Of a stretch of DNA of 64,000 nt, positions 37,872-39,284 are shown one piece after another. Each line of letters begins with the position of its first letter. The stretch's first letter is position 1. Source of the stretch: Candidatus Eremiobacterota bacterium (GTDB lineage Bacteria; Vulcanimicrobiota; CADAWZ01; Ess09-12); the NCBI GenBank assembly GCA_031082125.1, contig JAVHLM010000018.1, forward strand, positions 86,648 to 150,647, written 5' to 3'. The notes below the pieces were generated by a model that did not search any database, was not told where the DNA came from, and saw nothing but the letters and a program-made list of their open reading frames with translations. The position numbers and the translations under genes were made by a program.

Positions 37872-39284
37872 CTATTCTATAAGTCCCTGAACGGAGTCAT
37901 ACTGGGGAAAGTCCTGTTTATTTGTCACACTTTTATGAAAGCTTCCCGAGCACCACAATGTATAGGTATCAGGAATGACGGTATAGATATAGCGGTAGGT
38001 GCTCTCCCCTGCTGAAGCGCATGTGGGAATTACTTTAAGATAATTTGGCGTCACAAAGGAAAGAGCCGGAGGGTAGCGCCCCGCGTTGTCCGTCGAATAC
38101 ATCTCCATCGCGGTGCCCAGGTTCTTCAGGTTGCTCTTGCAGGCCGTGAGCTGACCTCCATGGGACCCCGTGGCCCTCACAAAATTAGGGATGAGGACTA
38201 TAAAGACCCCTGCGAGCAAAAGGCTTACCAGGGTACCGTTCCGAAGAGTGCTTTTTCCTGTCGCATAACTGACTACTATCAGCAAGAGGGAGGCCAGGAA
38301 AATGACCATAAGGCCAAGGAGAGCATAGATCAGCATCTCATAATCATGACTCTTTAAAAACAATACTGCAAAATATAGAATCCAGATCCAGAGCACAGGC
38401 GGCAGACTGGAGTGCTTCGCAGGGGATGGGGAAGCCAGCGACCGGGTCACGGCGGGAGGCGGCAGAGAGGCCTTCCCCTCCTCAAAGGCTTTCAGGTGAT
38501 CCCTCAATTCCCTTACCGACTGGTATCTGTCTCCAGGGTTGGCGGCAAGGCATTTCCCCACGATGGCTTCAAGGGCAGGGGTCACGGCGGGATTGTACTT
38601 CGAGAGGGGCGGGAAGGAAAACCTGAACTGCGCCACGTCCTCGCCGGAGAGCAGACTGTATAAGGTCGCTCCAAGTGAGTATATGTCGCTGCGGGTGTCG
38701 GACTGGCCCGTGCCGTACTGCTCGGGCGGCGAAAAGCCGGGAGTCCCCATGACATGGGTATCCTTCGTCTTGCCGGGATTGAAGAGGCGCGCGATGCCGA
38801 AGTCAATGAGAGAGAGCCTGCCCCGGGGGGTCATAAGGATATTGGAAGGCTTGAGGTCTCTGAATATCACCGGCGAGGGTTCATGGCCGTGGAGGTACTC
38901 GAGAATGTCACAGATTTTTATCGCCCATCCCGCCGCGGTCTTTGGGTCAGGCCTCTCTGCCACCTTGTCGATGGTGGCGCCTTCTATGTACTCCATCACC
39001 ATGTAATGGCGCATGCCAAGTGAAAAGTGATCAACGACCTTGGGGATTCCCGTATGGTTAAGCTCGGAGAGAAGGGAAGCTTCCTTTTCAAAGAGCTCAA
39101 GCGCTTCGGCACGCTCATCGCCGCTGAGGGCTCCCTCCCACATCTCCTTCACGGCCCAGGCAGCGCCGGCGACATGGAGATCGCCGGCGAGGTACACAAC
39201 GCCGTAAGCGCCTCTTCCGATGACACTCTCTATACGGTAGCGCTCCTTGAGGATTTCTCCCCGGGCGAGTATGTGTTCTTTCAC
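37872..39284 (-). CDS. Ser/Thr kinase fused to a pilin-like transmembrane and globular domain
   Basis: The 470-residue protein has a Hanks-type kinase (about 15-270) with GRGAYG, Lys46, FRDLKPSN (Asp143; Phe replaces the usual His) and DFG (Asp161). After a linker there are three hydrophobic segments (about 295-380). The last reads [12 protein letters not shown] and is followed by a globular domain (about 380-470) beginning [20 protein letters not shown] and containing GRYPPALSF, then IPTCAS and a final WCSGSFH. This mirrors type IV pilins and GspG-type pseudopilins, whose first helix ends in ILIPNFxRA. No prepilin peptidase site is seen. The pilin-like part should face the periplasm and sense or assemble. 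Translation is coupled to the PQQ-type propeller gene by an ATGA overlap. Confidence 0.88.
   Translation of the reverse strand: [470 protein letters not shown]

Follow-up and report, generated by a model that had tools for sequence, protein, structure and literature searches.

A putative receptor-type Ser/Thr kinase ending in an uncleavable type IV pilin in Candidatus Eremiobacterota

What is a type IV pilin doing at the C-terminus of a Ser/Thr kinase? The question is raised by a gene of 470 codons with a GTG start, located at 37872..39284 on the minus strand of the window, i.e., the whole 64,000-nucleotide stretch of DNA analysed here. The earlier note described its product as a kinase with three hydrophobic segments behind it, of which the last has VLIPNFVRA at its end and is succeeded by [20 protein letters not shown] and GRYPPALS; the sequence is as quoted, and the reading frame contains neither a stop nor a frame break. 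The Hanks/PknB-like kinase domain occupies residues 16-270 (38475..39239, minus strand), of which residues 16-219 match Pfam Pkinase with E=1.3e-35, and its nearest solved relatives are kinases of the PrkC/PknB/StkP type. The AVK lysine (in AVKEM), the catalytic loop FRDLKPSN with its Asp, Lys and Asn, and the DFG motif are all present ([15 protein letters not shown]), which together with the profile match identifies a Hanks-type Ser/Thr kinase; the His of HRD is replaced by Phe, as in most of the paralogues. The gene immediately upstream (39281..40621, minus strand) encodes a PQQ/BamB-like β-propeller lacking an evident signal peptide. The TGA stop of this gene and the GTG start of the kinase gene overlap in GTGA, which makes co-translation of the two probable. 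Further along the same strand, at 34223-36378 of the window and at a distance of about 1.5 kb from the kinase gene, lie genes for a stand-alone GspE/PilB-like ATPase and then a Secretin_N-only protein, with no other recognised secretion genes directly beside the pair; 41507-45925 (minus strand) encodes a 1472-aa protein with nSTAND1 NTPase and C-terminal FGE-sulfatase (formylglycine-generating-enzyme-like) domains.

The last 117 residues of the kinase gave 47 tblastn matches in the same genome. The best non-self match was a 133-aa prepilin, L002 (locus C3:195304), 70% identical with E=7.6e-49, whose sequence starts [49 protein letters not shown]; the heads of the two proteins share 70 of 93 residues (75%). 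L002 is also the nearest row to the query module in the module tree, which is based on few alignment columns. Homologues of PilC, PilT and PilB are encoded on the same strand of contig C3 within 5 kb of L002, which makes it very likely the major type IV pilus (T4P) pilin. At the family level, the module profile matches solved GspG, geopilin and PilA chains, and 31 of 46 module relatives match TIGR01710 (GspG) at E ≤ 0.01. The query module alone matched nothing in Pfam, NCBIfam (E ≤ 0.01) or PHROGs, and it falls below the curated cut-offs of TIGR01710/T2SSG for a GspG major pseudopilin. Some members of the module family give weak profile matches to DUF1559 (SBP_bac_10) and T2SSG, neither of which is matched by the query module at E ≤ 0.01.

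The predicted structure points in the same direction. In the AF2 model of the module (pLDDT 92.9) a long helix (module residues 2-49) is followed by two β-hairpins, the type IV pilin arrangement of a long α1 on an antiparallel β head, and type IV pilins filled all five top ranks of the Foldseek search of the PDB, with a probability of up to 0.96 and a TMt of 0.64 for the best, albeit with weak E-values of 0.098 and above. The full-length model (pLDDT 83.1) runs from the kinase through three helices into the pilin. The earlier note's reading of the C-terminus as a pilin, which an unrelated predicted fold would have contradicted, is thus borne out by the homology to L002, the family profile, and the AF2 and Foldseek results; the true prepilin bearing the same module, which it proposed to look for in this genome, is L002. 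The head itself comprises residues 372-470 (37875..38171, minus strand) and consists of α1-C, an αβ loop and the two β-hairpins, with invariant cysteines at positions 382, 422 and 445.

As in type IV major pilins and GspG, the module has the α1 spine, the P22 position and the head fold; unlike them, it forms the C-terminus of a kinase and has neither Gly(-1) nor E5, so that by sequence it is not a prepilin peptidase substrate. When the register is set from P22 (residue 366), positions +1 to +5 read STLRN, against FTLIE in L002, and the corresponding residues are MTLFE and TTLLE in the fusion paralogues L006 and L011, respectively. Position -1 is K in the query, R in L006 and P in L011, against G in the true pilin. 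Thr2-Leu3 stands in register in three of the six fusions with a recognisable P22, compared with a background of about 0.9% (p ~1e-5), and Glu5 is kept in two of these six; the other fusions have diverged more. Since such relics of FTLIE stand in exact register, what was captured was a whole mature pilin. With K(-1), S1 and N5, and with its module at residues 345-470 behind a kinase, the query is not a type IV prepilin; lacking Gly(-1), it is expected to escape processing and to remain a membrane-bound, stationary pilin. The absence of a prepilin cleavage site from a fusion to a cytosolic kinase, as the earlier note had it, thus agrees with the sequence, the structure prediction and the relatives. 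E5 is gone from most fusions and a recognisable P22 from about ten of sixteen, so packing of the filament type is not kept throughout the set, which speaks against the pilus-sensing reading.

Three membrane segments, all encoded on the minus strand, connect the two ends of the protein: residues 292-310 (38355..38411; AF2 helix 296-310), residues 321-339 (38268..38324; AF2 helix 314-342), and residues 345-371 (38172..38252), the last of which is the pilin α1-N with the STLRN relic, a Pro in the P22 register and no Gly(-1). The first two were delimited by hydropathy, which places the third hydrophobic segment at residues 351-369. By predicted topology, with an odd number of segments after the kinase, the protein is a receptor-type Ser/Thr kinase. 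Most kinase-pilin fusions have three segments or one by hydropathy, the number being ambiguous at the threshold used for L004 and for the two-segment L009 and L013. This, together with the exported or lipidated versions of the head found elsewhere, suggests that the head lies outside the cytoplasmic membrane. The three cysteines are kept in 17 of 17 kinase-borne heads, and in an attempt to pair disulfides by covariation the cysteine columns proved almost invariant in the aligned set; their conservation is in keeping with an oxidising compartment. The periplasmic placement suggested in the earlier note is accordingly supported by the odd number of segments, the invariant cysteines, and the signal-peptide and lipoprotein versions of the head.

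The fusion is not confined to one gene. Twelve of the 126 Pkinase matches in this genome carry the pilin module (the query, L001, and L004, L005, L006, L009, L011, L012, L013, L014, L025, L069 and L080), their loci being spread over several contigs, and four more fusions come from three other families of the phylum (L087 in f4, L090 in f5, and L115/L116 and L117 in f10). L009, the second fusion of the window (57350..59383, minus strand, 677 aa), has two tandem modules, the first at residues 370-488 (57920..58276) and the second a head at residues 573-673 (57365..57667) without a membrane helix of its own. Divergent from L009, on the plus strand at 59511-61838 of the window, is a gene for a probable lipoprotein of 775 aa with two similar halves. 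A split version is represented by four further kinases (in L073, L075, L078 and L135), in which the module is found in the next gene, about 95-120 bp downstream on the same strand, as the diverged end of a multi-span membrane protein. On the kinase tree the fusion label requires at least four changes across well-supported branches, indicating repeated gain, loss and fission; kinases that branch within the fused set have ankyrin repeats or a cytosolic tail where the pilin would be. The question of one or several captures was argued from the kinase tree, the module tree having too few columns for that purpose.

Throughout the phylum the module is present in 110 of 148 genomes. In the genomes with a single copy (family f9 and others) it is a plain prepilin, so that the pilin represents the ancestral state, from which the kinase form is derived. 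In large genomes the head is also borne by ankyrin lipoproteins, DUF3352 proteins, signal-peptide proteins and TPR proteins. Invariant head residues in alignment A1 are C32, P55, C72, Y80 and C95, the helix being often replaced. One to three heads of the same family occur in the DUF3352 proteins L037, L044, L045, L047, L084 and L124. L125 (G012 C70:12904-17415) is a run of five consecutive genes, each encoding one membrane helix and a module head, at least one of which continues into ankyrin repeats. The short protein L146 (G010 C28:415467), with a zinc-ribbon-like N-terminal CxxC...CxxC, one membrane helix ending in ILIPNFIRAR and a pilin head without a cleavage site, is by its sequence a further instance of an uncleavable pilin attached to a cytosolic domain.

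Among the fusions of the query's own genome no enrichment near T4P or type II secretion system (T2SS) genes was detected: for two of the 12, a PilC, PilB/T or N-methyl gene is present within 5 kb, about 1.9 being expected. Parts of these systems are unusually numerous in this genome (G000), with 57 PilC-domain matches (about 29 genes), 38 matches to PilB/PilT-type ATPases and 49 N-methyl pilin signals, alongside the 126 Ser/Thr kinases. In a separate set of seven Ser/Thr kinases of G000 (C35:8702, C28:109530, C9:207149, C3:73589, C29:105325, C1:268868 and C20:114662), against about 2.0 expected, a PilC-type platform gene is less than 2 kb away; pilin genes are close to several of them, forming small kinase-PilC-pilin clusters distinct from the fusions.

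The following picture is favoured. The protein is a single-chain receptor kinase in which a cytoplasmic Hanks kinase is joined through two extra membrane helices to a third, the α1-N of the type IV major pilin that was captured; the head of this stationary, uncleavable pilin would be held outside the membrane. The head may then serve as the input domain: its contact with pilin subunits of the membrane pool or with the assembly platform would alter the clustering or conformation of the kinase, and pilin supply or pilus activity might thereby be reported as Ser/Thr phosphorylation. Two known kinds of kinase can be compared with it. PASTA kinases of the PknB/PrkC/StkP type share the cytosolic Hanks kinase, the transmembrane link and the C-terminal extracytoplasmic domain; the query differs from them in its pilin outer domain, in having three membrane segments instead of one, and in the absence of peptidoglycan-binding repeats. 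The proposed functional analogue is PilS of Pseudomonas aeruginosa, a membrane histidine kinase that reads PilA by direct contact (PMC6058289); unlike the query, it spans the membrane with six segments and does not itself carry a pilin domain. By this analogy, pilin or pilus state is a plausible input. That the query is a receptor kinase whose outer domain, a stationary pilin, responds to pilin supply or pilus activity is given a little under an even chance. It is more doubtful whether there is a whole class of kinases that use an uncleavable version of the cell's major pilin, stationary in the pilin pool or platform, as a sensor converting pilin supply or dynamics into phosphorylation.

The main competing explanation, which is nearly as likely, is that in this phylum the head of the pilin now serves for extracytoplasmic recognition in general; on kinases it would bind a different ligand or a surface component, with the helix kept only as a convenient membrane anchor and pilus state irrelevant. 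The 47 tblastn matches in one genome, on many architectures, and the invariance of the head residues in A1 where the helix is often replaced are what such a domain would leave behind. The occurrence of the head on unrelated proteins and the missing neighbourhood link between fused kinases and pili likewise count against a general pilus role. The query itself is less easily accommodated, since it retains a complete pilin including α1-N, its head is far closer to the T4P pilin than to the heads on other architectures, and nothing would oblige a receptor domain in free drift to remain 75% identical. That the genome's T4P pilin is the closest relative of the head favours the sensing of, or docking to, a pilus or T2SS that the earlier note proposed. 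With its complete α1-N and its 75%-identical head, the query is the strongest candidate for a like-with-like contact in the pilin pool of the membrane.

It is improbable that the pilin part is a structural or neutral accretion, of use only for anchoring or stabilising a membrane kinase that is constitutive. Close kinase paralogues with very different tails, such as ankyrin repeats or a cytosolic domain, do show that the C-terminal part is exchangeable, but a simple anchor needs no conserved head, all three cysteines are retained in every one of the 17 kinase-borne heads, and the arrangement has arisen repeatedly and recurs as split gene pairs. That two genes were joined artificially in annotation or assembly can be practically dismissed, as the same order of parts recurs at 12 loci here and four in other genomes.

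Neither Hanks kinases nor pilins are new in themselves; that the two are covalently joined, in such numbers and with more than one origin, is apparently undescribed as far as the open-access literature shows, a search of that literature (to which most subscription journals do not belong) having yielded nothing relevant on kinase-pilin fusions. The survey of fusions covered the genomes of this phylum. As a caution for annotation, a match to a pilin does not necessarily denote a filament subunit. To judge from the predicted proteins, this genome reuses pilin parts for the outward-facing end of signalling receptors, which adds a receptor domain new to bacterial Ser/Thr kinases, as far as the open-access literature goes, and pilin heads are reused as a general extracytoplasmic domain throughout a phylum. 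A kinase with a built-in pilin would make the reading of type IV pilus state by cells testable in one polypeptide.
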